The notes under the pieces: model-generated
Seen by the model: the letters and a program-made list of their open reading frames with translations, nothing else
What the model was told of the DNA's origin: nothing
Databases searched by the model: none
Source: Flavobacteriales bacterium
GTDB lineage: Bacteria > Bacteroidota > Bacteroidia > Flavobacteriales_F > PHOS-HE28
Direction: 5' to 3'
DNA: 64,000 bases
NCBI GenBank assembly: GCA_013360395.1
Contig: JABWBQ010000022.1
Coordinates: forward strand, 1-64,000
Translations under genes and position numbers: made by a program
Part shown: positions 37,296 through 53,468 of the stretch, piece by piece
Layout: every line of letters begins with the position of its first letter
Numbering within the stretch: the stretch's first letter is position 1

Positions 37296-38471
37296 CTACC
37301 GCAGCGCCCGTTCCAGATGCCCCCACAGCGTGCCGAGTGAACACACCCGGATGCCCTTGCCGTACGGAAAGTCGTCGGAGGTGGGTGTAACGATCAGTTG
37401 CACGGGAGCCTTCACCGCCTCGAACGCCAGTTGGTTGCCCTTGCTCAGCGAGGGCGAGTTGGTGGTCTTGATCTCCAGGGCGACGACCGGTCGCAGCGAC
37501 CGGGTGATCAACAGGTCGAGCTCCGAACCGTCGTGCGTGCGGAAATAGTGGAGCTCAGCGCGGCCCTTCAACCAGGCCCGCACTTGCTGGATCACGAAGC
37601 CCTCCCACGAATTGCCCGCCACGATCCCCGACCGCAGCGAGGCCAGGTCGTTGATGCGAAGCTGGCTGTGCAGGAGGCCGGTATCGGCGAAATACACCTT
37701 GGGGGCCGTGGTGAGCCTCTTGCGCAGGTTCATGTGGTAGCTGGGCAATACGTTGATGAGCATCGCCTGCTCGAACCACGAGAGGTAGCGCTTCACCGTT
37801 GGCCCGGTCATGCCGATGGACTTGGCGATCATGCTCATGTTGAGCGGTGCACCATGCACGGTGGCGAGCATGGCCAGCATCGCCCGTGTGTCCTTGGGAT
37901 CCGCGTTCAACCCCAGCACACGCATCTCCCGTTCGGTGAAGTCCCGCAGGTAGTCCTGCGTCCAGGTCGCCGCGCTCGCATCGCTCTGGGCCAGAAAGGC
38001 GCGCGGGAACCCACCGCGCAACCACAACTTATCCCGGTCGCGCTGCGCCACTTCGTGCAGACAGAACGGGTACAGATCCAGGTAGGCGATACGCCCGGCC
38101 AGTGATTCGGCGCTGCTTCTCACGATCTCCGGAGAGGAGGACCCCAGCAACAGGAACCTGCCGGCACGGCGGTCCCGATCGATCAGCGAACGCAACAGCG
38201 GGAACAGGTCCGGCTTGCGCTGCACCTCGTCGATCACCACCAGCTTCTTCCGATGCTCGTGAAGAAAAGCCTCCGCATCGCGCAGGCGCTCCAACGCGGC
38301 CGGGCTCTCCAGGTCCAGGTACAGCACCTCTCGTTGCGCGGCTTTGGCCAATTGCTTGGAGAAGGCCGTCTTCCCCACTTGCCGCGCGCCGAGGATGCCA
38401 ACAGCGGGCGCACGCTTCACAGCAGCGAGCGCATCAGCTTGCAGATAGCGCGTTCGTAGTCGGGTGGGCAT
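37296..38471 (-). CDS. DUF4143-type AAA ATPase
   Basis: A 391-residue protein from the ATG at 38471. The N-terminal AAA_14 domain has Walker A GARQVGKTAFSKQLAK, Walker B KKLVVIDEVQRKPDLFPLLRSLID and sensor GRFLLLGSSSPEI. The middle is a winged-helix-like part (LNMSMIAKSIGMTGPTVKRYLSWFEQAMLINVL) and the C-terminal DUF4143 domain has a nuclease-like DGSELDLLITRSLRPVVALEIKTTNS (E-D-E-K pattern). Members are widespread, often near mobile DNA, and poorly understood. A 37-bp dyad containing the predicted -7 box lies directly before the ATG, and a truncated paralogue follows upstream. Confidence 0.9.
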   Translation of the reverse strand: MPTRLRTRYLQADALAAVKRAPAVGILGARQVGKTAFSKQLAKAAQREVLYLDLESPAALERLRDAEAFLHEHRKKLVVIDEVQRKPDLFPLLRSLIDRDRRAGRFLLLGSSSPEIVRSSAESLAGRIAYLDLYPFCLHEVAQRDRDKLWLRGGFPRAFLAQSDASAATWTQDYLRDFTEREMRVLGLNADPKDTRAMLAMLATVHGAPLNMSMIAKSIGMTGPTVKRYLSWFEQAMLINVLPSYHMNLRKRLTTAPKVYFADTGLLHSQLRINDLASLRSGIVAGNSWEGFVIQQVRAWLKGRAELHYFRTHDGSELDLLITRSLRPVVALEIKTTNSPSLSKGNQLAFEAVKAPVQLIVTPTSDDFPYGKGIRVCSLGTLWGHLERALR

Positions 38472-38508
38472 GACCGCAAATCTAATATCAGATATTACAT
38501 CTGCGGTC
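38472..38508 (-). promoter_or_regulatory. 37-bp dyad operator overlapping a -7 box
   Basis: Outer arms GACCGCA (38472-38478) and TGCGGTC (38502-38508) and inner arms TAATATC (38483-38489) and GATATTA (38491-38497) share one centre at 38490. On the gene strand TAGATTTG (38477-38484) matches TAnnTTTG and lies 5 bp before the ATG at 38471. A repressor bound here would block transcription; the mRNA would be nearly leaderless. Confidence 0.75.
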
Positions 38509-38537
38509 TTAAATCGTGCACCGACCACACGTTCCGA

Positions 38538-38718: not shown

Positions 38719-38965
38719 AGGAGCGATCCGCCCTTGGCCAGCGCGACTTTCCGGTGCGGGAGACCTCGGCCACGGGATAGCCGTTCGGCCGTACCGAACG
38801 CGAGGCCCATGCGGTACCGGTCACGCAGGTCATGGCACAGATCCGCGCCAAGCGACGGACACGCCATACCGCTCGCGCCAACAAAAGCGGATCCTCGTGC
38901 AACCCGGGCGACCGGCCTGATAACCCGAGCCGCGTTCCGGGTATGAACCACCAAACCACGAGATC
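38719..38965. other. Intergenic stretch
   Basis: These 247 bp lie between the operator copy and the small secreted protein gene. Open frames are Arg-rich and look like composition effects. I see no supported gene. Confidence 0.45.
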
Positions 38966-39361
38966 ATGAAAACGCTGCTGCTCCCCCTCTGCCTGACCGT
39001 CGCCACCAACTTGGCTGCGCAGGACAAAGCCCCGCTCACGCTCTGGACCGATGCCGGTGCGCACGGGCATTGCCAACGGATCCAAGGGACCGGCATCACC
39101 GACCGGCTGCGGCCCCTGATGCACGCGCAAGTGAGTGCGTTGGAGGTGGGCGAAGGATACCGCGTCACGCTCTTCAACGGCGAGGATGGCGAAGGTCCGG
39201 AGCGGATCACGGTGCAAGGTCCCCGGCGTGTGGACGACCTGAAAACACTGCTTCGGTTGCACGGGACCGGCAACTGGGACAATGCGATCGGCTCCATCCT
39301 CATCCAAGCTGCGGAGCCTGCCGCACCCGCCGCACTGGATGTGCTCGCCGGAACGAACTGA
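38966..39361 (+). CDS. Small secreted beta/gamma-crystallin-like protein
   Basis: A 131-residue protein with a signal peptide (MKTLLLPLCLTVATNLAA|QD). The mature part holds one domain: LTLWTDAGAHGHCQRI, YRVTLFNGEDGEGPERITVQGP and a closing NWDNAIGSILIQA. The pattern VTLFxxxxxxG followed by (N/D)(N/D)xx(S/T)S (here DNAIGS) resembles single beta/gamma-crystallin domains that bind calcium. No sorting domain is present. It sits 9 bp before the LytTR gene on the same strand, so the two probably form one transcript. The crystallin link is by motif only. Confidence 0.65.
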   Translation: MKTLLLPLCLTVATNLAAQDKAPLTLWTDAGAHGHCQRIQGTGITDRLRPLMHAQVSALEVGEGYRVTLFNGEDGEGPERITVQGPRRVDDLKTLLRLHGTGNWDNAIGSILIQAAEPAAPAALDVLAGTN

Positions 39362-39370
39362 AACACAGCC

Positions 39371-39736
39371 ATGATGGTACTTCGAGCACCGCTGGTCCTC
39401 CGGACCGCCCATGGGCCGCAGCTGTTCGATGCGCGCACCTTGTTGCGCTTCGATGCGGAGGACAAGTATGCCCGGGCCACCACCACCGACGGCAGGCGCA
39501 TCGTGGTACTCCATCCCCTCAGCGACCTGGAAGAACGGCTGTGCTGTGGCGAACGTATCGGCGACTTACTCTTCGCACGCACCCACCGCAGCTGCATCGT
39601 GGCCCTGCACCACGTGAGCGGCATGGACAAGCTGCGCAACCTGGTGTTCGACGAACATCCTGCCGCACCGCTCAGCAAGCGCGCATGGCAGGAATTGGCG
39701 GACCTGCTCGGCTCCCTGCGTCATCGGCGTCCTTGA
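39371..39736 (+). CDS. Stand-alone LytTR DNA-binding protein
   Basis: A 121-residue protein consisting almost only of a LytTR domain: LLRFDAEDKYARATTTDGRRIVVLHPLSDLEERL, then LFARTHRSCIVALHHVSGMDKL, matching the family pattern of FxRxHRSxLVNxxxI. No receiver or membrane part is present. LytTR proteins (AgrA, ComE, VirR) bind direct repeats related to TACAGTTA. A similar TACGGTTAT occurs, on the minus strand, in the boxes before the acyltransferase genes downstream, so this protein is a candidate regulator of that array. Confidence 0.85.
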   Translation: MMVLRAPLVLRTAHGPQLFDARTLLRFDAEDKYARATTTDGRRIVVLHPLSDLEERLCCGERIGDLLFARTHRSCIVALHHVSGMDKLRNLVFDEHPAAPLSKRAWQELADLLGSLRHRRP

Positions 39737-39859: not shown

Positions 39860-39866
39860 GATAACC
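39860..39866 (+). promoter_or_regulatory. Array box 1 (GATAACC core)
   Basis: CGGATCGATAACCCGGTAG resembles the box at the other array genes (consensus GGATGATAACCG(G)TACC), with an extra base. It lies 17 bp before the leader ATG at 39884. Confidence 0.5.
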
Positions 39867-39883
39867 CGGTAGCTGGTCGCGGA

Positions 39884-39913
39884 ATGAACGAGCAGAAACA
39901 CCCCAAGCCATGA
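39884..39913 (+). CDS. Nine-residue leader peptide 1 (MNEQKHPKP)
   Basis: A short frame, MNEQKHPKP then TGA, whose stop overlaps the ATG of acyltransferase 1 at 39910 (CCATGA). The identical leader with the same overlap precedes acyltransferase 4 at 42471-42500. The overlap suggests translational coupling; translation is not proven. Confidence 0.5.
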   Translation: MNEQKHPKP

Positions 39914-40593
39914 TCATCCTCACCCGCATCTCCGAGTCCGACAAGCTGGAGGAATACTACCGGTTCCGCTACCGCATCTACAGCGAAAGCCGTTTGAAGG
40001 GCGTTTTTACCAACGAGGAGGGTCTGGATAAGGACGTGTTCGATAACCGCGCCTACCACTACGGCTGGTACGTGGACGGGGTGCTGGTGGGCTGTGTGCG
40101 CTTCATCGAGGCGGATGACAGCGCGACGCCGATCCCGATGTTGAACTACATGCCGTGTGAAGTGGCCGATGCGGTGCGCGGCTATATCGCTGAACGCCGT
40201 GCGCAGGGGCAACCCATGCTGGAGGCCAGCCGCTTTTGCCTGGCGCCGGAACACCGGGGCCTCCGCACCGCGCGGGAGTTCGTGCTGGCCATGGTGCGCA
40301 CCATGCAGCCCCTGGGCTACGAACACGGCCTGTTCGATTGCGACGACGCGCACGCGCCGTTCTACCGTCACTGCGGATTTGAGCCGTTGGCAGGGGCGGT
40401 GCGCTTTGGTATTTCGAACATGCACAGAACCTGTACCTGCCTTACCTACAACTACGACCACATCGCCCGCAAGCAGGGCTGGGGCAAACCTGCACGGGGG
40501 CATAAGCGGCCTTGTTCGGTCCGCAGAGCCGCTGAATATGGACGGCTGCGAAAAGTGAATAGGATGATAACCGTACCAGGGACACAGGAATGA
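39910..40593 (+). CDS. LuxI/FeeM-like acyltransferase, array copy 1
   Basis: A 227-residue member of the autoinducer-synthase branch of the GNAT fold. Features: LEEYYRFRYRIYSESRLKG (Arg18/Arg20 where LuxI has Arg24), DKDVFDNRAYHYGWY (Asp42, Asp45), LVGCVRFIEA (Arg64) and MLEASRFCLAPEHRG (Glu105, Arg108), corresponding to conserved LuxI D45, D48, R69, E97 and R100. The typical LuxI Trp after the first motif is missing, so the product may be an N-acyl amino acid or other acyl compound rather than an AHL. The C-terminal half is almost the same as copy 5. Its last residues are shared with the next gene's leader region. Confidence 0.85.
   Translation: MIILTRISESDKLEEYYRFRYRIYSESRLKGVFTNEEGLDKDVFDNRAYHYGWYVDGVLVGCVRFIEADDSATPIPMLNYMPCEVADAVRGYIAERRAQGQPMLEASRFCLAPEHRGLRTAREFVLAMVRTMQPLGYEHGLFDCDDAHAPFYRHCGFEPLAGAVRFGISNMHRTCTCLTYNYDHIARKQGWGKPARGHKRPCSVRRAAEYGRLRKVNRMITVPGTQE
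40562..40577 (+). promoter_or_regulatory. Array box 2
   Basis: GGATGATAACCGTACC, identical to the box at 42443-42458. Lies 12 bp before the leader-like ATG at 40590 and inside the 3' end of copy 1. Confidence 0.6.
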
Positions 40594-40616
40594 AAGATGT
40601 GGGATCACCCCAAGCC

Positions 40617-41218
40617 ATGATCACCCTCACCCGCATCACCGAGCCGGACAAGCTGGAGGAATACTACCGGTTCCGATACCGGATATACAGCGAGAGCCGA
40701 TTGAAGGGCGTCATCACGGGCGAGGAAGGCCAGTACAAGGACGCGTTCGATGACCGCGCCTACCACTACGGCTGGTACGTGGATGGGTGCTGGTGGGCTG
40801 TGTGCGCTTCATCGCGGCGGATGACAACGCGACGCCGATCCCGATGCTGAACTACTTTGATGACGTATGCGCTGAAGCTGTTCGCCAGCATATTGCGGAT
40901 CGGCATGTGGCAGGGCAGCGGATGATCGAAGCCAGCCGCTTTTGCATGGCGCCCGAGCATCGCGGTCTCCGCACCGCGTGGGAGTTCGCCCTCGCCATGA
41001 CCGAAACACTGTTCTCGCTCGGTGTGGAACATGGGCTCTTCGGATGCTTCACCGCTCATGCGGCCTTTTACAAACTCTTGGAATTCCGACCCCTCAACAG
41101 CGCTGGAGACCTGCACTATCCGGGTGCGGCATGCAGCTGCATGACATACGCCTACAAAGAGGTGTTGGCCGCAACGAACCGCCTGGGCACCACGCGGGGC
41201 ATTCGCCAGCGCAACTAG
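40617..41218 (+). pseudogene. LuxI/FeeM-like acyltransferase, array copy 2, frameshifted
   Basis: The first part (MITLTRITEPDKLEEYY, then the region DKLEEYYRFRYRIYSESRLKG and DAFDDRAYHYGWYVDG) is nearly the same as copy 1, then the frame is lost. Copy 1 reads GTGGACGGGGTGCTGG while copy 2 reads GTGGATGGGTGCTGG, one G fewer at 40785-40787. The second half continues in another frame to 41218 (LVGCVRFIAADDNATP, MIEASRFCMAPEHRGLRTA, ending RGIRQRN). Both halves keep the conserved residues, so the lesion is recent, programmed, or a sequencing error in a G run. The leader ATG at 40590 is fused in frame (MKDVGSPQA then MITLTR). Confidence 0.8.
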
Positions 41219-41268
41219 CTGAGCGAGGCGGCGTGAAGGGTGACGATACCGGAACGATGGATGTATCC

Positions 41269-41284
41269 GGATGATAACCGGTCC
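41269..41284 (+). promoter_or_regulatory. Array box 3
   Basis: GGATGATAACCGGTCC, 13 bp before the ATG at 41297 that begins the in-frame leader of copy 3. Confidence 0.6.
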
Positions 41285-41296
41285 GGGGGCGTTGGA

Positions 41297-41953
41297 ATGA
41301 ACGAGCAGAAACACACCAACGCCATGTTCACCCTCACCCGCATCACCGAGCCCCATAAGCTGGAGGAATACCATCGGTTCCGGTATTCGGTATATGCCAA
41401 CAGCACCCAACGTGGTTTCCTCGCGGGGCCGGATGGCTTCGATACGGATGAGTTCGATGCGAACGCCCTGCATCTGGGTTGGTACGAAGGCGATACGCTG
41501 GTTGGCTGCGTGCGCCTCCTGAGCCCTATCAAAGGTGTGCATCCGCTTCATTTCACGAAGGACCTGCTGGACCCTGAACAGCACGGACTTGCCTTGGCGC
41601 TGCTAGCGGAAGCGAAGGCTGCTGGTCAACCGCTCCGCGAAGTGAGCCGCCTTTGCCTCGCACCCGAGTACCGTTCGCTCGCCTCCGTTCGTCGTTTCGT
41701 GCTCGAGATAATCAGCACGGCCCACCGCTGCGGCCGGGATCATTGCCTCTTCACCTGCGAAGACCACCATGTCACCTTTTGGAAGCGCATGGGTTTCGCG
41801 ACCGTTAACGGCTTCGAGGGATACACGTGCCCCCGAAACCCAAGACCCAACTACTTGCTCCAGGGGGACTACCACGCACTGCTCCCACTGCACCGGGCCG
41901 AGTTGCAGCGGATCGGGTCCCGTCAGATGGTCGGCGTGTCTGTTGCTGCTTGA
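41297..41953 (+). CDS. LuxI/FeeM-like acyltransferase, array copy 3
   Basis: A 218-residue protein if read from the leader ATG (MNEQKHTNA then MFTLTRITEPHKLEEY); the ATG at 41324 would give 209. One extra base relative to copies 1 and 4 puts the leader in frame with the enzyme. Key motifs: YHRFRYSVYANSTQRGF, FDTDEFDANALHLGWYEGD, LVGCVRLLSP and LREVSRLCLAPEYRS. It is more diverged than copies 1, 2 and 5, with its own C-terminal extension (NYLLQGDYHALLPLHRAEL). It is followed by the only long gap in the array. Confidence 0.83.
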   Translation: MNEQKHTNAMFTLTRITEPHKLEEYHRFRYSVYANSTQRGFLAGPDGFDTDEFDANALHLGWYEGDTLVGCVRLLSPIKGVHPLHFTKDLLDPEQHGLALALLAEAKAAGQPLREVSRLCLAPEYRSLASVRRFVLEIISTAHRCGRDHCLFTCEDHHVTFWKRMGFATVNGFEGYTCPRNPRPNYLLQGDYHALLPLHRAELQRIGSRQMVGVSVAA

Positions 41954-42442
41954 CCGGAAAGTGCCTGAGGGTTCCCAGGCTCGCCTTCTGATCGCGCTGT
42001 ACGTAGGTGTCCGTGGTCCTGATCGCCAATGTATTCGTCACACTGATCGATCAAGTGCATTGCCACGCTGCGGTCCTCCTACCGTGAACCGCGCATGACC
42101 AGTACTGACGATCCGCTCGCTCCGCCGATCCGAGCACTTGTGCGGGTGATGAAGGTGGTGCAAGGGATGAGCAAGTACGGGCATTTCGTCGCTCCCTGGT
42201 CGTTACCGGAAGCAGAATACCGTTCAAGCCGCGCCACAGCGTCCCGCCCAAGCTCCTGCCCGACAGGATCGATGCCCGGCCCGCTCTTCCGGAATGGAGC
42301 GCCGGCGCGCCGAGGCGGAAAGCTTCCCGCTCACACCGCATACCGACCATTGGCGCTGACGCAGACCCGCTGCGCGGAAACCCTGGTCTCTACCGCCGGG
42401 GAATGCGGGTCGCTCGGTAGACTTGAAAAGGGATCCCCGCAT
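41954..42442. other. Non-coding gap within the array
   Basis: About 490 bp between copy 3 and the box of copy 4. A frame from 42095 (MTSTDDPLAPPIRALVRVMKVV) shows no family features. I see no acyltransferase remnant that I can align. Confidence 0.45.
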
Positions 42443-42458
42443 GGATGATAACCGTACC
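42443..42458 (+). promoter_or_regulatory. Array box 4
   Basis: GGATGATAACCGTACC, identical to box 2, 12 bp before the leader ATG at 42471. It is not in a coding region, which supports a regulatory role. Confidence 0.65.
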
Positions 42459-42470
42459 GTGAGTGCCGGA

Positions 42471-42500
42471 ATGAACGAGCAGAAACACCCCAAGCCATGA
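42471..42500 (+). CDS. Nine-residue leader peptide 4 (MNEQKHPKP)
   Basis: The same peptide as leader 1. Its TGA overlaps the ATG of copy 4 at 42497. Confidence 0.5.
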   Translation: MNEQKHPKP

Positions 42501-43072
42501 TCACCCTCACCCGCATCACCGAGCCGGACAAGTTGGAGGAGTACTACCGGCTCCGTTACCGGATATTCTCGGATAGCGACTACCACAGCTTGGTGGACCA
42601 CACGAAGGGCCAGTTTGATAGGGATGAATTCGATGACAAGGCGCTCCATTGGGGATGGTATTCGGGGCAGGAGCTGATCGCCACGGAGCGATTCCTTCCC
42701 GTTCGCGAACCGGCAGATTCCTACTGTCTCTCCGTAATAAAAGATCCCAAGGAGCGGGCCCCGCTCCTCAAGCACATCATGGACCGCGCGGAACGCAGTA
42801 GCGGTATGGCGGAGAGCAGCCGCATAGGTATTCGCCAGGACCATCGCTCACTCACCAATTTCATGGGGCTGGTGCGTGCGATCATCCGGCAGGCGCACGC
42901 CTGCGGGTTTGACGAGGGCTGGTTCATTTGTTTGGCAAGCCACGTTCCCTTCTACCGCCGTGCTGGATTCCATGTGCTGCCCGGGACCGAATCGATCACG
43001 TCATGTACGGCTCACCGAACAAGCATTGTCACGTTCGAGAGCTCGAATTTCTCGGATCTGATCGGGGTTTGA
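42497..43072 (+). CDS. LuxI/FeeM-like acyltransferase, array copy 4
   Basis: A 191-residue protein, the most divergent copy. The first 25 residues (MITLTRITEPDKLEEYYRLR) match the others, then sequence differs: RIFSDSDYHSLVDHTKGQFDRDEFDDKALHWGWYSG, LIATERFLPVREP, and MAESSRIGIRQDHRSL. The Asp pair, Arg and Glu-x-x-Arg are kept. The end (SNFSDLIGV) is unlike the other copies. Different central residues suggest a different acyl donor or acceptor. It is preceded by a box and leader and followed 49 bp later by copy 5. Confidence 0.8.
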   Translation: MITLTRITEPDKLEEYYRLRYRIFSDSDYHSLVDHTKGQFDRDEFDDKALHWGWYSGQELIATERFLPVREPADSYCLSVIKDPKERAPLLKHIMDRAERSSGMAESSRIGIRQDHRSLTNFMGLVRAIIRQAHACGFDEGWFICLASHVPFYRRAGFHVLPGTESITSCTAHRTSIVTFESSNFSDLIGV

Positions 43073-43121
43073 GCTGTGGATGGGTATCAACCCGGACGTT
43101 CGACTGAAAACACTGTGAGCC

Positions 43122-43763
43122 ATGATCACCCTCACCCGCATCACCGAGCCCCATAAGCTGGAGGAATACTACCGGTTCCGGTACAGGATCTACAGCGAGA
43201 GCCGACTGAAGGGCTACGGGGCCGGTACAGCCGGTTTGGACAAGGACGCGTTCGATGACCGCGCCCACCACTACGGCTGGTACCTGGCCGGGGTGCTGGT
43301 GGGCTGTGTGCGCTTCATCGAGGCGGATGGCAGCGCGACGCCGATCCCAATGCTGAACTACGTGTCGAACGAGGCGGCCGATGCCGTGCGCGGCTATATC
43401 GCTGAACGCCGTGCGCAGGGTCAACCCATGCTGGAGGCCAGTCGCTTCTGCCTGGCGCCCGGGCACCGGGGTCTCCGCACCGCGCGGGAGTTCGTGCTGG
43501 CCATGGTGCGCACCATGCAGCCCCTAGGCTACGAACACGGCCTGTTCGATTGCGACGACGCGCACGTACCGTTCTATCGTCACTGCGGTTTTGAACCGTT
43601 GGCAGGGGCGGTGCGCTTTGGTAAATCGAACATGCACAGAACCTATACCTGCCTTACCTACAACTACGACCACATCGCCCGCAAGCAGGGCTGGGGCAAA
43701 CCTGCACGGGGGCATAAGCGGCCTTGTTCGGTCCGCAGAGCCGCGATCAACGCACAAGGATGA
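43122..43763 (+). CDS. LuxI/FeeM-like acyltransferase, array copy 5
   Basis: A 213-residue protein nearly the same as copy 1 in both halves: RYRIYSESRLKG, LDKDAFDDRAHHYGWYLAG, LVGCVRFIEADGSATPIPMLNY, MLEASRFCLAPGHRG. From 43646 to 43744 the DNA is identical to 40434-40532 of copy 1 (99 bp), indicating recent duplication or gene conversion. It lacks the box and the ATGA leader directly upstream; a short unrelated frame ends 4 bp before its start. Its stop TGA lies inside the box of the next gene. Confidence 0.85.
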   Translation: MITLTRITEPHKLEEYYRFRYRIYSESRLKGYGAGTAGLDKDAFDDRAHHYGWYLAGVLVGCVRFIEADGSATPIPMLNYVSNEAADAVRGYIAERRAQGQPMLEASRFCLAPGHRGLRTAREFVLAMVRTMQPLGYEHGLFDCDDAHVPFYRHCGFEPLAGAVRFGKSNMHRTYTCLTYNYDHIARKQGWGKPARGHKRPCSVRRAAINAQG

Positions 43764-43769
43764 TAACCG
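43758..43769 (+). promoter_or_regulatory. Array box 5, before the methyltransferase
   Basis: GGATGATAACCG, covering the copy 5 stop and 16 bp before the leader ATG at 43786. It links the methyltransferase gene to the acyltransferase array. Confidence 0.55.
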
Positions 43770-43785
43770 AAGGTACCAGCTGGGT

Positions 43786-43818
43786 ATGAACCGTGGTACA
43801 ACACAGACAACCCCATGA
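43786..43818 (+). CDS. Ten-residue leader peptide 5 (MNRGTTQTTP)
   Basis: A short frame whose TGA overlaps the methyltransferase ATG at 43815, as with leaders 1 and 4. The sequence is different after the first two residues, so position rather than peptide sequence is kept. Confidence 0.45.
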   Translation: MNRGTTQTTP

Positions 43819-44453
43819 AAAAGCTCACCTCCACCACCGGTTTCCTGCTCCTGTTCTACGTGCTCCCGCTCGGCCTTCGTCCGGCATTGCTGCTCAGCTG
43901 GCCGGTGCTGGTGCTTGCCTTCTTCTGCACGGTGCTTTTCCTGACGCAACCTGCGTTGAGCATGCAGGAGAGCAAGGCCCACCGAGGTACTGATGGTTGG
44001 ACCATCTGGCTCATCCTTGGTGTGAGCGGACTGGGCCAGATCCTGAGCCTGGTGGACTGGGCGTACTTCCAGGGTGCACCTCTGGGTTTGGACATGTGGA
44101 AGACAATCGGCACGGGCCTGCTCTTCGCTGGTACCGCCTTCCGCCTTTGGGCCATCCGTACGCTGGACAGGGCCTTCGCCGCCGTGGTGCAGATCAAACA
44201 GGACCAGCAGCTCGTGACCAGCGGTCCCTACCGCTGGCTGCGGCACCCCAGCTACACCGGAGCCTGGCTGGCCATGATCGGTGCGGCATTGCTCATGCAC
44301 AGCTATCTTGGCCTGGTGATCATGGGCCCGGGCATGCTGCTGGTGTACATGCGGCGGATCGCGGTGGAGGAACGCACATTGGAGCAGGCCTTCGGGGCAG
44401 AGTACACGAACATGAAACGGAACACCCAGCGGTTGGTACCGGGGGTGTGGTGA
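43815..44453 (+). CDS. Isoprenylcysteine carboxyl methyltransferase-like membrane protein
   Basis: A 212-residue protein with about five membrane helices: FLLLFYVLPLGLRPALLL, WPVLVLAFFCTVLF, WTIWLILGVSGLGQILSL, IGTGLLFAGTAFRLWAI and a late pair (WLAMIGAALLM, LVIMGPGMLLVYM). The SAM-binding signature is LVTSGPYRWLRHPSYTGAW and EERTLEQAFGAEYTNMKRNTQRLVPGVW, typical of ICMT/PEMT-fold enzymes that methylate carboxyl or amine groups of lipophilic substrates. It shares the box and overlapping leader of the acyltransferases, so it may modify their product; the substrate is inferred only. Confidence 0.85.
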   Translation: MKKLTSTTGFLLLFYVLPLGLRPALLLSWPVLVLAFFCTVLFLTQPALSMQESKAHRGTDGWTIWLILGVSGLGQILSLVDWAYFQGAPLGLDMWKTIGTGLLFAGTAFRLWAIRTLDRAFAAVVQIKQDQQLVTSGPYRWLRHPSYTGAWLAMIGAALLMHSYLGLVIMGPGMLLVYMRRIAVEERTLEQAFGAEYTNMKRNTQRLVPGVW

Positions 44454-44499: not shown

Positions 44500-47400
44500 A
44501 TGAAGCACCTCATTACCGCCTTGTTCCTGGCGTGCGCGGTCAGCGTGAACGCTACACAGTGGACCGTGAGCAATGACGTACAGGCGCCGGCACAGTTCAC
44601 CGCACTGCAACAGGCCATTGATTCCGCCAGTGCCGGGGATACACTGCTTGTCGCAGGAACCGGACTTTCGTATGGCAATATCGTCGTGGACAAGCCGCTG
44701 CATCTGGTCGGTGAAGGGTACTGGCCGGACGATGCCGCCACCATGGTGGAGCAACTGGACATCCGGTCTTCCAATGTCCTGGTCACGGGCTTCTACGCCA
44801 CCAGCACACCGTTCAATGGGATCAAGCTGAATGCTTACCTTGCAGCAGGACAGGAACTTACTGACGTGCGCGTAACGCGCTGTCGCGGCGGCATTGACCT
44901 GAGGGGGTCGAATACCCTTGGTTCTGGGTTGATCTCCAACGTCCAGGTCGACCAGTGCATCATCATTGCCTTCAACTTTGCCAATGGATGGAACGAGAAT
45001 CGATTTGTTTTCGATACGCTCATTTTCAGGAATAACATCTTCAGTACAGGGTTTTACGCCAACCCTAACGGAACACAGACGAGTGACTTCATTGGAACCG
45101 GCACTATCATCATCGATCACAATGACTTCTTGGCCAGTGCCAATGGATGGGGAGCCTTCTGGTCCCAGTATTTCGCTACCCCCGCATGGCCAGCGGGCGA
45201 AATGGTGGTGTCGAACAACATCTTTCATGGCACCGGGCCACGAGGTTGTCCGAATTGCTGTTTCATCAACAACATGACCTTCAATGCGGGTCCAGAAGAC
45301 AGCGACGTCGTCGATCCGCTGGTCTGCGGCGGGGGTAATTTCTGGGCAACGGATCCCGGCATCACGGGCGGCCAGTTCAACTTCAACAACGACTACACGC
45401 TGCCACCGGGTTCGCCGGCCATAGGAACGGCCAGCGACGGAACCGATATCGGGATCACAGGTGGTGCCACAGCGCTGACACTTGGCGATCGGCCCTTGGG
45501 CCCTGAGGTCCATGGGTTGGAGATCCAGGAAGTGGCCGTGCCACCTGATAGTGTGTTCCACTTTCTGGCGGTGGTCCTCGGTAACCAAGACCCAGTGGTT
45601 CCCATCAATTCGTACGAGTACCTGCTGGACAGTGACCCGGGCGTCGGTATGGGTTCCTTGACGTTCACCGGGGCGAGTGACTCGCTGGTGGTGGCCGACC
45701 AGGGCGTGGCTGCTGGTCTTTCGTTCGGTTCGCATCTCTTTGGCCTTCGTGCAAGGGATATGAACGGTTCGTGGAGCCACACCGAATGGATCCCGCTGAA
45801 CATCTGCACGACCTATGGACCGACCGCCGCCTTCAAGCCGTTCCTCTCCGGCAGTACGGCAAGCTTTGTGGACAAAAGCAGATACGCGACGGCCCTCACA
45901 TACGAATTCGGGGATGGGCAGACCAGCGAGGCTATCAATCCGGTGCATGCGTATCCTGATGCCGGTATCTACGGGGCGAAGCAGATCGCATTGAATTCGT
46001 GCGGGGTGGATACGGCATTCCAGGTGATCGGTATTTCAGGCCTGAGCGGGCACCAACCACGGAAAGCGGCCAACGGTGGTTTATGCACGATCACGCTGAA
46101 CGGGGCAGGATTCAGTGGCGCCATGCAGTTCAGCTTGCACAGGGCGGGAAGCACGTTGATCCCGCAGTCTTTGGATGTCGTTTCCGAATCACTGGCATTC
46201 GCGGAGTTCGATCTCAACGGCGCGGACGTCGGGTACTGGGACCTGGAACTGGTCATCCCCGGTGATACCACCCACCTCCTCAGTAATGGTTTCGAAGTGG
46301 TCCCCACCGAATGGCCGAGCCAGGTCGTATGCACGGTGACAGGTCCTTCGGTGATCCGATCGCATACCTGGACCACGATGAATGTCGACGTGCACAACCC
46401 GAATGGTAACGATCTGTTCGCCGTGCCGGTGTGGATCGCCTACCCATCGGACCTGGACATGGATATGGTCACACCGGTTGATGACATCGTTTTCCCCGGG
46501 TCCGACACACTACAGCTCGATTTCCAGACCGAAATGCTTTGGGGGCAGCCCTATGATGGTACCGCATATCCGGTGCTTATTTCCCGGATCCCGGCCTTTT
46601 CCACAGTATCGCTCTCCATCCGTACCTACACGACCCAATTGACCGGCGCAGCGTCGCTGATGGCCTGGGCTGAACGACCGATGCTGGGGTTCACCGGTGA
46701 TGAGACCGGGCTGGACCAATCGTTCGGGCCAGGCCCCACCAACGGTAATCCTTCAGGCGGAGGCAGTGCCTGGAGCTGCACGAAGTGCTTTCTGGACCTT
46801 GTGCCTACCCCGCCGGGATGGTCCTGTGGAACATCCATTGGCGGGGCGATCAACTATGTGATAGGGTGGTCACAGGTGAGCGGGAGCCGCACCGAAATTG
46901 CCAACTGGGGCCCTGTTGCCTTGGACCTGGCCTGGGACTGCGGTAGCCTGCTCGCACCACCTGCCGCAATACTCGAGTACCTGGCGAAACTGAAGGAGGC
47001 GGCCGATTTCGGCGACTGTATTGCCGAACAGTGCCTACCTCCGCTCGCCGGTCCGAAGGTCGTTGGTCTCGGATGCGCCTGCGATCCGAACGATAAGTAC
47101 GGGCCTCTTGGTGCGGATACGGACAATTGGATCTCCCCTCGTGAACACGCTGCGTATTTAGTCGCATTCGAGAACGTGGACAGTTCGCTTTTCGCCGCCC
47201 AGCGTGTCGTGATCAAGGACACTATAGACGCGGCCGTTTTCGAGCTTTCTGACGCGCGGCTTGGTGCTATAGGCCTCGCGGATTCGCTGATCTACGCGGG
47301 TGGCATCTCACAACAGTGTTCCCAAGTGTTCCCGCTCTCCTCTGGTTACAACCTGCGTGTGGATGCGGAGATCGATACGACCACCGGTATCGCCCAATGG

Positions 47401-48201
47401 GAACTGTTCATCGTGGACCCGGTCAATGACAGTCTGCCATCGGATCCCTTCGCCGGTTTTCTGCCGCCCAATGTCTCCTCTCCTGAGGGCCAAGGCTTCG
47501 TTGTGCTGGACCTTGCATTGAAGAGCGGTCTGCCGCATGGAACGATCGTTAGCAATAAGGCGACCATCGTTTTCGACAACAATCCGGCCATCACGACCGG
47601 CACGTGGCAGAACACCATCGATTCAGAGGCCCCGTCGACCCACTTGGCACCGATCTCTCCGATCACCTTGGACAGCACGGTGTGGTTGGAGGTGGATGGC
47701 GATGACCTCGGTTGTGGTATCGAATGGTACGAGATCTATACTTCCACGGATACGACCACTGGTTTCCAACTCTGGACCGTGACGGACACCGCATTTGTTC
47801 CGTTCCAAGGTGTCCACGGCGTCACCTATCACTTCTACGCGTTGGCGGTCGATTCCGTGGGCAACCGAGAGGTCAAGGGTGATACCACTGAAGCCATCAC
47901 GCAATTCGATCTCACCTCGGCCATAGAGTCGTCGTACAGCGCTGGTGTCATGCGGCTGGTCCCGAACCCGGCATCCAGGGAGCTTCGGATCGTCCTCGCC
48001 GGCACTGGGAACGTCACCGGTCCGGTCCAATTGCTCAATGCGATCGGACAGCAGGTACCCGTTCCGGCCGGATCGTTGGTTGTAAACGAGGTTGCCGTCC
48101 AATCCCTGACCCTGGATGTCTCCGGATTACCAGCAGGTGCTTACTTCGTGGTGGTGCCCACGGCAACGGGCAAGGTGCATGGAAGGTTCGTCAAGGAGTG
48201 A
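44500..48201 (+). CDS. Giant secreted beta-helix/PKD protein with T9SS sorting domain
   Basis: A 1233-residue protein. Signal peptide MKHLITALFLACAVSVNA|T. Residues about 25-320 form a parallel beta-helix (LLVAGTGLSYGNIVVDKPLHLVGEG, ending PPGSPAIGTASDGTDIG). Around 360-440 is a repeat like those at 963-1907 (YEYLLDSDPGVG, FGLRARDMNGSWSHTEW). A PKD domain follows (LTYEFGDGQTSEAINPVHAYPDAGIY). Around 830-1040 lies a conserved CDPNDKYGP domain of the large Bacteroidota cell-surface proteins. The end (RLVPNPASREL to GRFVKE) is a type A Por sorting domain. Probably an adhesin or surface layer component. It overlaps the next gene by 23 bp. Confidence 0.9.
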   Translation: MKHLITALFLACAVSVNATQWTVSNDVQAPAQFTALQQAIDSASAGDTLLVAGTGLSYGNIVVDKPLHLVGEGYWPDDAATMVEQLDIRSSNVLVTGFYATSTPFNGIKLNAYLAAGQELTDVRVTRCRGGIDLRGSNTLGSGLISNVQVDQCIIIAFNFANGWNENRFVFDTLIFRNNIFSTGFYANPNGTQTSDFIGTGTIIIDHNDFLASANGWGAFWSQYFATPAWPAGEMVVSNNIFHGTGPRGCPNCCFINNMTFNAGPEDSDVVDPLVCGGGNFWATDPGITGGQFNFNNDYTLPPGSPAIGTASDGTDIGITGGATALTLGDRPLGPEVHGLEIQEVAVPPDSVFHFLAVVLGNQDPVVPINSYEYLLDSDPGVGMGSLTFTGASDSLVVADQGVAAGLSFGSHLFGLRARDMNGSWSHTEWIPLNICTTYGPTAAFKPFLSGSTASFVDKSRYATALTYEFGDGQTSEAINPVHAYPDAGIYGAKQIALNSCGVDTAFQVIGISGLSGHQPRKAANGGLCTITLNGAGFSGAMQFSLHRAGSTLIPQSLDVVSESLAFAEFDLNGADVGYWDLELVIPGDTTHLLSNGFEVVPTEWPSQVVCTVTGPSVIRSHTWTTMNVDVHNPNGNDLFAVPVWIAYPSDLDMDMVTPVDDIVFPGSDTLQLDFQTEMLWGQPYDGTAYPVLISRIPAFSTVSLSIRTYTTQLTGAASLMAWAERPMLGFTGDETGLDQSFGPGPTNGNPSGGGSAWSCTKCFLDLVPTPPGWSCGTSIGGAINYVIGWSQVSGSRTEIANWGPVALDLAWDCGSLLAPPAAILEYLAKLKEAADFGDCIAEQCLPPLAGPKVVGLGCACDPNDKYGPLGADTDNWISPREHAAYLVAFENVDSSLFAAQRVVIKDTIDAAVFELSDARLGAIGLADSLIYAGGISQQCSQVFPLSSGYNLRVDAEIDTTTGIAQWELFIVDPVNDSLPSDPFAGFLPPNVSSPEGQGFVVLDLALKSGLPHGTIVSNKATIVFDNNPAITTGTWQNTIDSEAPSTHLAPISPITLDSTVWLEVDGDDLGCGIEWYEIYTSTDTTTGFQLWTVTDTAFVPFQGVHGVTYHFYALAVDSVGNREVKGDTTEAITQFDLTSAIESSYSAGVMRLVPNPASRELRIVLAGTGNVTGPVQLLNAIGQQVPVPAGSLVVNEVAVQSLTLDVSGLPAGAYFVVVPTATGKVHGRFVKE

Positions 48202-51200
48202 GGGCCGGGCTGTCCGCCTCCTTTTCCTCTGTGCATTGGTCGTGTTCGCGGCCTGTGGCGACCGAACGAATTCTTCCACCCCGGATACGACCATTCCGGA
48301 CGATCCATCGCACACGCCGTCATTGAAAGACACCTTGACCGACTTGTTCCAGGGAGGCGCGCACGATCAGGCCCTCCACCTGGCCGAGGATAGATGGCGG
48401 ACCGACAGTCTGAACTGGGCGAACAAGCATGACGCGGAGACATGGCATAAGTGGGCGACCCTGTTCCACCATGAGCTGATGGATCCATTGGTCGGCGCCC
48501 ATCTCGAGCGTGCCTTGGGCATGATGGATGCGGTGATCGGTGCGGGTCACGCCCATGTGCCGGGTGAGCATCTCCTACTCGCCGCCTTGCACAAGGAACA
48601 TTCCAAGTACCTGAATCGTGCAGGTCGGAAGGAGGATGCGTTGCTCACTGCCCGAGCGGGCTACGACATGCTCGCCTCCACCGGTGACACGATCACCGAA
48701 GAAGCCATCGGTCTGTTGAACGCCCTCGGGATCCGGATGTTCGCACGTGGCGGGTACGATGCCGGGATCGCGTACATGAACCGGTCCATCAACATCGCCA
48801 GGAGCCTGCAGGATCCAAAGCAGGAAGCCACACAAAAGCTCCGTTTGGCGGGGCTCCTCCTGCCTGCCGATTCGGGCCTCGCGATGCGTTTGTTCCGGGA
48901 GGCGGAAGCCACGGCGCGTGCAGCAGGCGACACGATCACATGGTGTACCGTGCTGAACGGTCGTTCCGTATACATCTTCAACAACTTCGGTGTTTATGAC
49001 ACCAGCGCGATCCTCAGGCCAGCACGCCTGATCAATTACTGGAGCGGTTTCAGCCAGGAGGTCTATGCCACCAATGTGGGCAATGCCATAGTTTTCTGTA
49101 GGGAGAATTTCCTCTACTTCGAATTGGAAGAACTTTTGAAGGGCTATGAGCGCAAGGTCGCATCCCAGCCTTTCGATCCTGTTCTCCATGCCGCGCTACG
49201 AACCAGCCAAGCCGAGGCTTATAGGGCCATGCACGACGATCGCGCGGCGATGGCCTACGCCACGGAGGCCGTCGCACTGGTGAGGGAACATGGTTTGATG
49301 GCTGTACATCCGCAAACGTCCTTGCGGGCGTGCTTGATTCTCATGGCGACCCAATCCTGGGCGAACGACCATCCTGCTGCAATAGCCACGGCTGAAGAGG
49401 TGCTGGCCATCCCTGCTTTCGGTGGGGTACAGGAACGTACCATGAGAAGCCACATCATGGCGAACCTTGCCAACGCGCAAGCACTGAACGGAGACCCTGC
49501 CCGGGCGATCGGGACCATGAGCCAGTTCCTTGAAGACCCCACGTTGCGACACCGCGCGCTGACCAACCTTGGTAAATACTACCGGATGCTGGGGGAAGGG
49601 AAGAAGGCGGACAGCTGTGACTTCCTTGTATTGCGCGATCCAAACGTGAACTATCGTCTGCGCGGGGAGGCCGCGATCGCTCTGAGTGAAGATCGCGCGG
49701 CGACGGGCATGCATTCGGAAGCAGAGGACTTCGCCCGGGAGGCACTTGTGGCATGCGGTGCGATCGTTCCATCACAGGAAGGACGACCGCGGATCACCTT
49801 TTCCGCCGACGAAGTATCCCGCCATTTCGATGCAACAAGACAATGGTGCCGCTGCTTGGAAGGCTCCTTGCCGATGCGTACGGACCAACATGCGGCGAAG
49901 CAGGAGCTGCTCGACTGCGATTCCGTGTTCCGGATCCATGTCGATACATTGCTCCGCACCACGCGGGATCCCATGGCACGCACGGGTCTGTTGGACCTTA
50001 TGACCGAAAGTCTGGATCGCACTATCCGGTTGTTGACCGAAGGCGACCCGAAAATGGTGCCGTGGAGAAAGGTGCTGCAACTGATGGAATTGCGGCGGGA
50101 CCATCGCTGGCGTTCCATGCAACGGGAGGAGCAGGCCGGACTACGGTACGGCGTGCCGGATGATCTGTTGCGAACCGAACGTCGGCTCATCGGTCTCCTG
50201 GAATCCATGATGCGCAATGACGCGCAACCTCAACTTTTGAACGGTGCTCGCTCTCCCATGACCTTGGTGCGTGATTCATTGATGGTCGTCAGCGCCCTGA
50301 TCAGATCCATCGCCCCAGGCTACTATTCCGCGCTCAACGGATTGGAGCCGATCGATCCCGGATCCGTAATGAAGGCACTGGCTCCAGGCGAACATATCGT
50401 TGTCCTGCACCTCGATACCGTGGATCGGACCCTCGTTTCGGTCCATGTGGATCACGATACCATTGTTGGACAGCGAGGTGAGATGCTGGCGGATGGGGTG
50501 GACGAGTGTGTGCATGCGCTTAGGAACATGCATGGACGGGATTCGACTGTTTCCAGAGCACTCGCCGATCTCGTTTTCGGTACTATTGGGAGGTCGGCTC
50601 CCACGGGCTCTTTGATCATCCTACCTGACGGACCGCTTTGGGGTGTTCCGTTCGATGTCCTTTGGTCGGCGACAGGATCAGCGTCTACGGAACTGACGAA
50701 CATCCGAAACGCAAGCTCGCTTACCACATTGGTTCAGCGGTCTTCTCAAGGGGCGCGAACGAGCAATTCGGAGCTGTTCGCCTTTGCCCCCAGCTATCGT
50801 ACCGGGTCCAAGGGGACCATGGTGTCCGACAGGGCCGGGCGGTTGCGCGATCTTGGGCCTTTGGTGGCCAATGTCGAGGAGGTATCCGAGATCGTGGATC
50901 TGGTAGTGGGCAGCGAGTACCTCGCGACCGATGCGAACGAATCAGGCTTCCGGCTCAAGGCCCCCGCAGCCGAGGCTGTCCATTTGGCCATGCACGGGGT
51001 GATCAATGCCGAGGAACCGTTCAATTCCTACCTCATGTTCGAGCGCGTGGACAGCAGCGCGGAGAATGATGGTCGACTAACCGTTGCGGAAATCCATGAC
51101 CTGAAACTCCGTGGTGATCTGGCCGTGCTGAGCGCCTAGACCGGTATCGGGAAAGCGATCAACGGCGAGGGAGTCATGAGCCTCGGGCGCGCCTTCAACT

Positions 51201-51947: not shown

Positions 51948-52724
51948 TTAATCCATCCATTCCCGCAGGTCGCCCGGCAGGCAACCGGCGCGGTCCGCCC
52001 GCCTGAACTCCTCCTGCACGCGGGACCTGTTGTCCTGCAGCGCGCCCACCAGCCCGCGGACAACGGCGGCTTCGCAGTTCTCCCACCGCTGCGGGTCGCG
52101 CAATGCGGTCAGTTCCGCCATGGCCTTGTCGGGTTCGTTCAGCCGCAGCCATACGATGGCCCTGTCCAGGATCACCGGATCATGGAACTGGCGGGCGAAC
52201 GCCGTGTCCTTCTTCAGCAACTCCCCGCTGCGTTCCAGGTAGGCCTCGAGCTGGCCGGTCCGGCGCAGTTCGTTGAGCTGGTCGTCCAAGTCATCCGCTG
52301 CTCCACTGCGCAGTCCGCTGAACTCGTATCCTGTCCCGGCGTTCAGTTCGGCGAGCGCATCCGCGGGCAAGCCGTTGCCGCCGACCCATTGTTGAAGCGC
52401 AAGTCCGACCACCAAGGCCACGCTCGCGGCCGCGGCGAGCCACTTCCAGCGTCCGTGTTGGATGGGGATCACGGGTGTTTCCGAGACACCACTTTGTGTG
52501 GTCTTTTGCTCCTGCGCACCGGACACGCGTTGCACCAGGTCGCGGAACCTCAATTCCTGCCCGCGTTGCAGTGTCCCGGAAAGCGTCCGCTCGACCTCCA
52601 CCTCCGCACGCAGGCGTTCATCCTGCGCCAGTTCCGATTCGAACGTGCGCAGTTCCTCCCCGCCGAGCTTGCCGCTCACGTAGGCCTCGATACGCTCCAG
52701 GCGCTGGAAGTCAGGCTCGTGCAT
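51948..52724 (-). CDS. Membrane anti-sigma factor of the second CHAT set
   Basis: A 258-residue protein with cytosolic N-terminus FQRLERIEAYVSGKLGGEELRTFESELAQDERLRAEVEVER, the same pattern as the anti-sigma at 4174-4902. One membrane helix follows (WKWLAAAASVALVVGLALQQW, about 93-113), then a helical periplasmic tail (LNELRRTGQLEAYLERSGELL, AIVWLRLNEPDKAMAELTAL). It overlaps the sigma gene by 14 bp. It is convergent with the damaged CHAT gene. It is intact. Confidence 0.87.
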   Translation of the reverse strand: MHEPDFQRLERIEAYVSGKLGGEELRTFESELAQDERLRAEVEVERTLSGTLQRGQELRFRDLVQRVSGAQEQKTTQSGVSETPVIPIQHGRWKWLAAAASVALVVGLALQQWVGGNGLPADALAELNAGTGYEFSGLRSGAADDLDDQLNELRRTGQLEAYLERSGELLKKDTAFARQFHDPVILDRAIVWLRLNEPDKAMAELTALRDPQRWENCEAAVVRGLVGALQDNRSRVQEEFRRADRAGCLPGDLREWMD

Positions 52725-53334
52725 GGCTGTGTACAGGGGCTTCCTGCTTGTAAAATTCGATCCATTTGGCCTTGCACCGGTGGCGTTTCACCTTCACGGA
52801 GCCCAGGTTGGTCATGGCCAGTTCGTGCATGATCTCCTGCTCCAGCCGGTCCGCCATGTCGGCCTGGAACAGGCGCTGGCAATCGGTACTGAGCTTCTTG
52901 AAGGCCCGCCAGGCCCGTTGGGTGTCTTCGGAAACGAATTCGTGCTCTTCCACGGTGGTGATGATATCGAGGGGAGTGCTCCCCTCCACCGCTTCATTCC
53001 CCATCCCCCCTGCATGGTTATCAACCGGCCGGATTCTTCTTCTGCGAAGCTCCTTCAGCCAGAGGTTCATGCCCACCCGGATGCACCAGGTGCTCAGCTT
53101 GGTGCCTTCCAGCAGCGTGAATCCTCCGGTGCCCACCTTCTCCCAGAGCACGACGACGGCTTCGTTGGCCATGGTCACCCCTTCCTCGTGGCTCCCGCTG
53201 TTGCTACGCACATAGTGGATGATGGCCGGTTTCAGCTGGCGCAGCAGCACATCCACCGCGCGGCTCTGGACCAACTGGTTGCCGCCGCGCAGGGCCTCCA
53301 CGATCTCCGGGTCGCTCATGGTGCCACGATCCAT
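52711..53334 (-). CDS. ECF-type sigma factor of the second CHAT set
   Basis: A 207-residue protein. Region 2: IVEALRGGNQLVQSRAVDVLLRQLKPAIIHYVRSNSG, HEEGVTMANEAVVVLWEKV, LSTWCIRVGMNLWLKELRRRR. Region 4: DTQRAWRAFKKLSTDCQRLFQADMADRLEQEIMHELAMTNLGSVKVKRHRCKAKWIEFY. The sequence is related to, but clearly different from, the sigma at 3599. The start is the ATG at 53334, or the ATG 15 bp further in. It is divergent from the metalloprotease gene, with 134 bp between. Confidence 0.88.
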   Translation of the reverse strand: MDRGTMSDPEIVEALRGGNQLVQSRAVDVLLRQLKPAIIHYVRSNSGSHEEGVTMANEAVVVLWEKVGTGGFTLLEGTKLSTWCIRVGMNLWLKELRRRRIRPVDNHAGGMGNEAVEGSTPLDIITTVEEHEFVSEDTQRAWRAFKKLSTDCQRLFQADMADRLEQEIMHELAMTNLGSVKVKRHRCKAKWIEFYKQEAPVHSHARA

Positions 53335-53468
53335 GTGATGCTAAAATACTGGCCGTTGTGATAACAGATCTGGCGGGGAGGGAATACATGGTCGGACCCG
53401 GAGGATCCGGTGTTCGGGCGGAGGCCGAAAAGCCCGGATAGAGTAGGCGATGATAAACCCTTGCACCC

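Follow-up and report, generated by a model that had tools for sequence, protein, structure and literature searches.

What does a tandem array of acyltransferase-like genes produce in a member of the Bacteroidota, and how is it controlled? The question is raised by contig JABWBQ010000022.1 of a Flavobacteriales bacterium (assembly GCA_013360395.1), positions 1 to 64,000 of which, read on the forward strand, constitute the window analyzed here. Five paralogues adjoin one another on the same strand at 39910-43763, and four of the five (copies 1, 3, 4 and 5) are intact. They are flanked by genes for a LytTR-type regulator and an ICMT-family methyltransferase, and a two-box DNA element stands ahead of each transcription unit. 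We propose that these genes form a self-contained acyl-metabolite regulon that combines FeeM-type synthases, ICMT-type methylation and LytTR control, and we put the probability of this overall reading at roughly one half. The array is composed as follows:

39910-40593, + strand: copy 1, putative FeeM-type N-acyltransferase, intact (PF21926 E=2.5e-11, 44 bits)
40617-41218, + strand: copy 2, putative FeeM-type, frameshifted (PF21926 E=2.6e-7, 31 bits for the larger piece)
41324-41953, + strand: copy 3, putative FeeM-type, intact (PF21926 E=5e-9, 36.6 bits; PF13444 E=3.4e-10)
42497-43072, + strand: copy 4, putative FeeM-type, intact and the most divergent (PF21926 E=4e-9, 36.9 bits)
43122-43763, + strand: copy 5, putative FeeM-type, intact (PF21926 E=3.1e-10, 40.5 bits)

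No further FeeM-type copies were found elsewhere in the source genome. In copy 2, the loss of one base near 40785 separates a first piece at 40617-40790 from a remainder in another frame (approximately 40784-41218). As the frame downstream of the deletion is still open, the break probably reflects either recent decay or an assembly error. For copy 3, an ATG at 41297 and a GTG at 41240 are in-frame alternatives to the start at 41324. The copies are characterized by an LTRI opening followed by (D/H)KLEEY, RYR(I/V), D-x-F-D, GCVR or ATER, and E-x-S-R. The sole deviation is found in copy 3, where RYSV replaces RYR(I/V), while E105, S107 and R108 are invariant throughout. A preliminary description had reported five adjacent paralogues with such motifs. 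Coordinates, motifs and family scores, the latter far above what chance would give, bear this out, with the correction that only four copies are intact. The frameshift, the shared promoter-like element and the adjoining genes for the ICMT-type methyltransferase and the LytTR protein had all been missed.

The curated cut-off of the Pfam family FeeM (PF21926, N-acyl amino acid synthase, NAS) is 27 bits, and it is passed by all five copies, in the case of copy 2 through its larger piece. An AlphaFold (AF2) model of copy 1 (pLDDT 83.8) was compared with 350,542 PDB chains using Foldseek. The best 14 matches are chains of BjaI, FeeM, MesI, RpaI and LasI, ahead of any ordinary GNAT, and the FeeM 2g0b chains occupy ranks 2, 5, 9 and 12-14 (E 4.5e-9 to 4.7e-8, TM-score on target 0.63-0.69). 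Residues R24, D45, D48, R69, E97 and R100 of acyl-homoserine-lactone (AHL) synthases can all be placed in hidden Markov model (HMM) alignments, whereas the position of LuxI Trp34 is taken by Lys30 in copy 1 (HMM alignment to 6wns). The Glu homologous to the catalytic Glu of the array is essential in Nas354 (PMC4897644). Given the Pfam FeeM scores, the fold of copy 1, the retention of the active-site residues including Glu, and the exchange of Trp for Lys, we consider it likely from sequence and model that the array encodes FeeM-type N-acyltransferases rather than proven AHL synthases.

Two other assignments have to be weighed against this one. It is very improbable that the copies are true AHL synthases and hence represent a Bacteroidota LuxI system. 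Copy 1 just passes PF00765 (24.9 vs 24 bits) and its structure retrieves BjaI, MesI, RpaI and LasI, but the remaining copies stay below this cut-off, the NCBIfam AHL models give 12-24 bits where 250-292 are required, the FeeM profile outscores Autoind_synth in every copy, and the conserved Trp is replaced. A six-frame PF00765 search missed the array locus at threshold, and its negative was not used. The model for PEP-CTERM/exosortase acyltransferases (TIGR03694) yielded 19-43.5 bits, below its cut-off of 111.95. Ordinary short-chain GNAT acetyltransferases of different function that merely resemble FeeM are an unlikely alternative: generic GNAT families match too, and Acetyltransf_5 even matches copy 3 slightly better than FeeM does, but 14 of the 14 best structural matches are acyl-ACP (acyl carrier protein) or acyl-CoA autoinducer or NAS enzymes, and the catalytic Glu is retained together with the R/D/D/R set. 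The original LuxI/FeeM-like assignment and the caveat that AHL may not be the product, since the LuxI Trp is absent, therefore stand, and the fold comparison did not place the enzymes in an unrelated GNAT branch.

Three further genes in the immediate vicinity belong to the proposed regulon:

38966-39361, + strand: small protein with a signal-peptide-like start (open reading frame, 131 amino acids; a 40% identical orthologue adjoins the LytTR gene in the BJ7 genome introduced below)
39371-39736, + strand: single-domain LytTR DNA-binding regulator, 121 amino acids (PF04397 E=3.6e-10, 40.4 vs 22.6 bits)
43815-44453, + strand: ICMT-family integral-membrane carboxyl methyltransferase (PF04140 E=1.5e-19, 70.6 vs 24 bits)

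The LytTR gene starts 9 bp downstream of the small-protein gene. In the ICMT-family protein, RHPSY and EE..L, which contain the His and Glu of the S-adenosylmethionine site, align with the ICMT structures 4a2n and 5vg9. Among 45 genomes of the genus, orthologues of the LytTR protein (72% identity) and of the ICMT-family protein (77% identity) occur only in BJ7, a metagenome-assembled genome (JACTMO010000040.1), and the FeeM-type genes are confined to the same two of the 45 genomes. In the related BJ7 the set recurs in a rearranged order; it comprises three FeeM-type genes together with genes for the small protein, LytTR and ICMT, for a collagen-like lipoprotein and for the DUF4143 ATPase that also adjoins the locus in the source genome.

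The strongest evidence that these genes work together is the shared two-box element, GATAACC-N14-GG(A/T)AT, which precedes every transcription unit and lies 47-57 bp ahead of its start codon. Exact whole-genome pattern search placed it at the following sites:

38919-38949, + strand: GATAACC-N14-GGTATGAACC, ahead of the secreted-protein/LytTR operon
39860-39890, + strand: element of copy 1
40566-40596, + strand: element of copy 2
41273-41303, + strand: element of copy 3
42447-42477, + strand: element of the copy 4-5 unit
43762-43792, + strand: element of the ICMT-type methyltransferase gene

Copy 5 has no element of its own and probably shares an operon with copy 4. Genome-wide, the exact element occurs six times in the source genome and five times in BJ7, every time inside the locus and on one strand, where about 0.27 matches per genome would be expected from base composition. 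The reversed pattern, used as a control, gave no match in either genome, and eight other genus genomes contain the exact element once or not at all. In BJ7 it is kept at the three FeeM-type genes, at the small protein-LytTR unit and at the lipoprotein(-ICMT) unit. When one mismatch was permitted, the additional matches were scattered and formed no second cluster. One of them, at 53360, was treated as a chance match because its second box lacks the GAAC extension and its distance to the start codon differs. Across the 11 sites of both genomes 12 positions are invariant and the spacer is unconserved. An RNA structure or riboswitch was considered and rejected, the fold z-scores (-1.05 to +1.37) being at chance level. 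With an unconserved spacer and no RNA structure, the shared element is one of DNA. A motif search for an extra upstream operator performed no better than on shuffled sequences. Since the element precedes each unit and all exact matches lie in the locus, the genes very probably form one regulon.

Note that the ATG within the second box opens a leader of 8-10 codons at copy 1 (39883-39912), copy 4 (42470-42499), the small-protein gene (38942-38968) and the ICMT gene (43785-43817), its TGA overlapping the main ATG (ATGA). At copies 2 and 3 the second-box ATG is in frame with the gene. The leader frames possibly indicate translational coupling or may have arisen by chance. In the BJ7 orthologue of copy 3 (L027, 9465-10115), ATA is found at the ATG start position, and the sole usual in-frame start, a GTG, precedes the second box.

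The array itself is a mosaic. Over the initial 60 bp of the reading frame all ten copy pairs are 83-95% identical, and between 120 and 180 bp identity drops to 27-62% outside the group of copies 1, 2 and 5. Copies 1 and 2 remain alike up to about 240 bp and then diverge. From these sequences we infer that the paralogues fit repeated duplication with gene conversion. Despite 87% identity, copies 1 and 5 differ at all six of residues 32-37 (permutation p = 0.004), a loop ahead of the D-x-x-D pair, and this difference may tune the substrate. The dN/dS values of orthologous pairs (0.16-0.21, with 0.21 for copy 3 and its BJ7 orthologue) correspond to purifying selection. Two benefits had been suggested for several divergent copies side by side. 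Dose amplification is weakly founded, because copy 2 is broken, whereas product diversity is plausible in view of the mosaic paralogues and of copies 1 and 5, which differ most at residues 32-37.

How might the regulon work? The FeeM-type enzymes would transfer long-chain acyl groups from acyl-ACP onto the amino group of amino acids, and the divergent copies would yield several products. The ICMT-type enzyme would then cap the carboxyl group of the N-acyl amino acid as a methyl ester. This step is proposed because of the precedent of RhlM, the first characterized bacterial ICMT-family enzyme, which is encoded beside rhamnolipid genes and needed for their methyl ester (PMC11069360). By this analogy, action of the ICMT-type enzyme on the array product is conceivable, with chances slightly below even. 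The LytTR protein, whose own operon bears the element, would switch all units jointly and so establish positive feedback, and the product would be released as a signal or surfactant. We consider a signalling role somewhat less likely than not. The weakest step is that LytTR reads the two-box element, and here we regard the odds as balanced.

Several points weigh against the proposed acyl-metabolite regulon. The locus is carried by two genomes only, and because its genes are linked, their co-occurrence amounts to a single presence/absence event in evolution and not to a statistical trend. The elements of copies 1-4 are partly akin through duplication of the array, although the sites of the small-protein, ICMT and lipoprotein units have only the two boxes in common. 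No sensor domain is present in the LytTR protein, nor is a receptor apparent. The product of the whole pathway is a prediction from sequence. Finally, the element departs from canonical LytTR sites, which are 9-bp direct repeats, 11-13 bp apart and upstream of the -35 region (PMC6193735): its boxes are unlike each other, its spacer measures 14 bp and it occupies a core-promoter position.

Owing to this misfit and to the resemblance to a core promoter, the element may instead be read by a sigma factor. If it were recognized as a promoter by an ECF-type sigma factor whose gene lies elsewhere, LytTR would not be the regulator of the units. The fixed spacing, the AAC-containing upstream box, the position 47-57 bp ahead of the start codon and the lack of any other conserved upstream element are indeed reminiscent of a -35/-10 pair. 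On the other hand, the locus has no sigma gene common to both genomes, and an ECF sigma factor would usually mark its own gene too, yet every exact match lies in the locus. We regard this explanation as a serious rival, though somewhat less likely than not. The candidate shared regulator in the window, an ECF-like gene at 52711-53334 (- strand) that matches Sigma70_r2 weakly and diverges from the gene of a T9SS-type (type IX secretion system) secreted protein, was rejected because it has no orthologue in BJ7. A different objection concerns purpose rather than control: the N-acyl amino acids made could serve as surfactants or as envelope lipids in life on surfaces or in biofilms, without any signalling, the element merely co-expressing the pathway and its secreted partners. 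FeeM-type products can be surfactants (PMC4897644), the four-NAS cluster of Stieleria affects biofilm composition while signalling there was merely speculated (PMC7293339), and RhlM methylation raises surfactancy (PMC11069360). The units also include the signal-peptide-like small protein and, in BJ7, the collagen-like lipoprotein. However, a control element restricted to the locus and present at the regulator's own operon is equally expected of an autoinduction circuit. We give the surfactant explanation a chance somewhat below even.

Beyond the source genome and BJ7, no FeeM arrays were detected in 396 genomes of the class, and a GTDB scan returned the BJ7 genome only. Viral contigs contained none, and plasmids gave one weak match. 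A standalone LytTR gene (36%) in genome G067 was discarded as a counterpart, with no FeeM match in the genome and no FeeM-type gene in the part of the surrounding 18 kb that was read.

The small protein encoded at 38966-39361 matched no Pfam family above cut-off, and a PDB sequence search retrieved nothing. Judged by eye only, it is possibly beta-gamma-crystallin-like. Its structure model (pLDDT 52) was too poor and was not used, and its hydrophobicity, read from the sequence, is limited to the N-terminal signal-like segment. A second homologue resides amid sugar-nucleotide genes in both genomes (L100, 6097-6540; L101, 6843-7268) without the element, and in G067 (L102, 7437-8416) a homologue comes after a collagen-like lipoprotein gene. 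A gene for a DUF4143/AAA_14 ATPase (37296-38528, - strand) lies beside the locus in both genomes with 84% DNA identity and without the two-box element. The region 44500-51139 encodes a large secreted PKD/DUF7619 protein, which bears a T9SS tail, and then a CHAT-domain protein. In BJ7, too, two genes, one secreted-type and one TPR-like, lie downstream of ICMT near the contig end.

On the boldest reading of the locus, which we consider improbable, methyl-ester (NAME-type) products would gain a first genetic model; genes for NAME synthases were reported as unidentified (PMC11580390). The likeness lies in the proposed product class, and the identity of the product here is hypothetical. The cluster may both produce a fatty signal or surfactant and regulate it, and a FeeM-type array that shares one promoter-like element, specific to the locus, with genes for a carboxyl methyltransferase and a regulator would be tractable in a standard laboratory host with few genes. 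Clusters with multiple NAS genes have precedents, and so do lipid methylation of the ICMT type and regulation by LytTR. Nothing matching their combination, the tandem mosaic array or the element confined to this locus turned up elsewhere, and neither ICMT nor LytTR genes lie beside other Bacteroidota FeeM-like genes (0 of 22 loci checked).

With LuxI AHL synthases the array enzymes share the fold and most active-site residues, but they differ by Lys at the Trp34 position and by low AHL profile scores; no LuxR-type partner was noticed at the array locus, where no profile search aimed at LuxR was made. In the LytTR systems HdrRM and BrsRM, too, the regulator is a small soluble LytTR protein encoded in an operon of two genes, and the promoter of that operon contains the putative regulatory element. 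Here, however, the partner is a small secreted-type protein instead of a multi-pass membrane inhibitor, and the element has neither the canonical repeat nor the canonical spacing. The RhlM pathway of Paraburkholderia resembles the locus in that the gene for an ICMT-family membrane methyltransferase adjoins those for the enzymes that synthesize an acyl conjugate bearing a free carboxyl group, but the synthases here would be FeeM-type instead of RhlA/B, and methylation is postulated. Another close counterpart is the FeeM family (FeeM 2G0B, Nas354 and the stieleriacine NAS genes), to which the copies are related by family score, fold, catalytic Glu and the R/D/D/R residues, and Stieleria maiorica also has several NAS genes, namely four, in one cluster (PMC7293339). 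What distinguishes the present locus is the close tandem array with homogenized 5' ends, linked to genes for an ICMT-type methyltransferase and a LytTR protein and equipped with one common promoter-like element.

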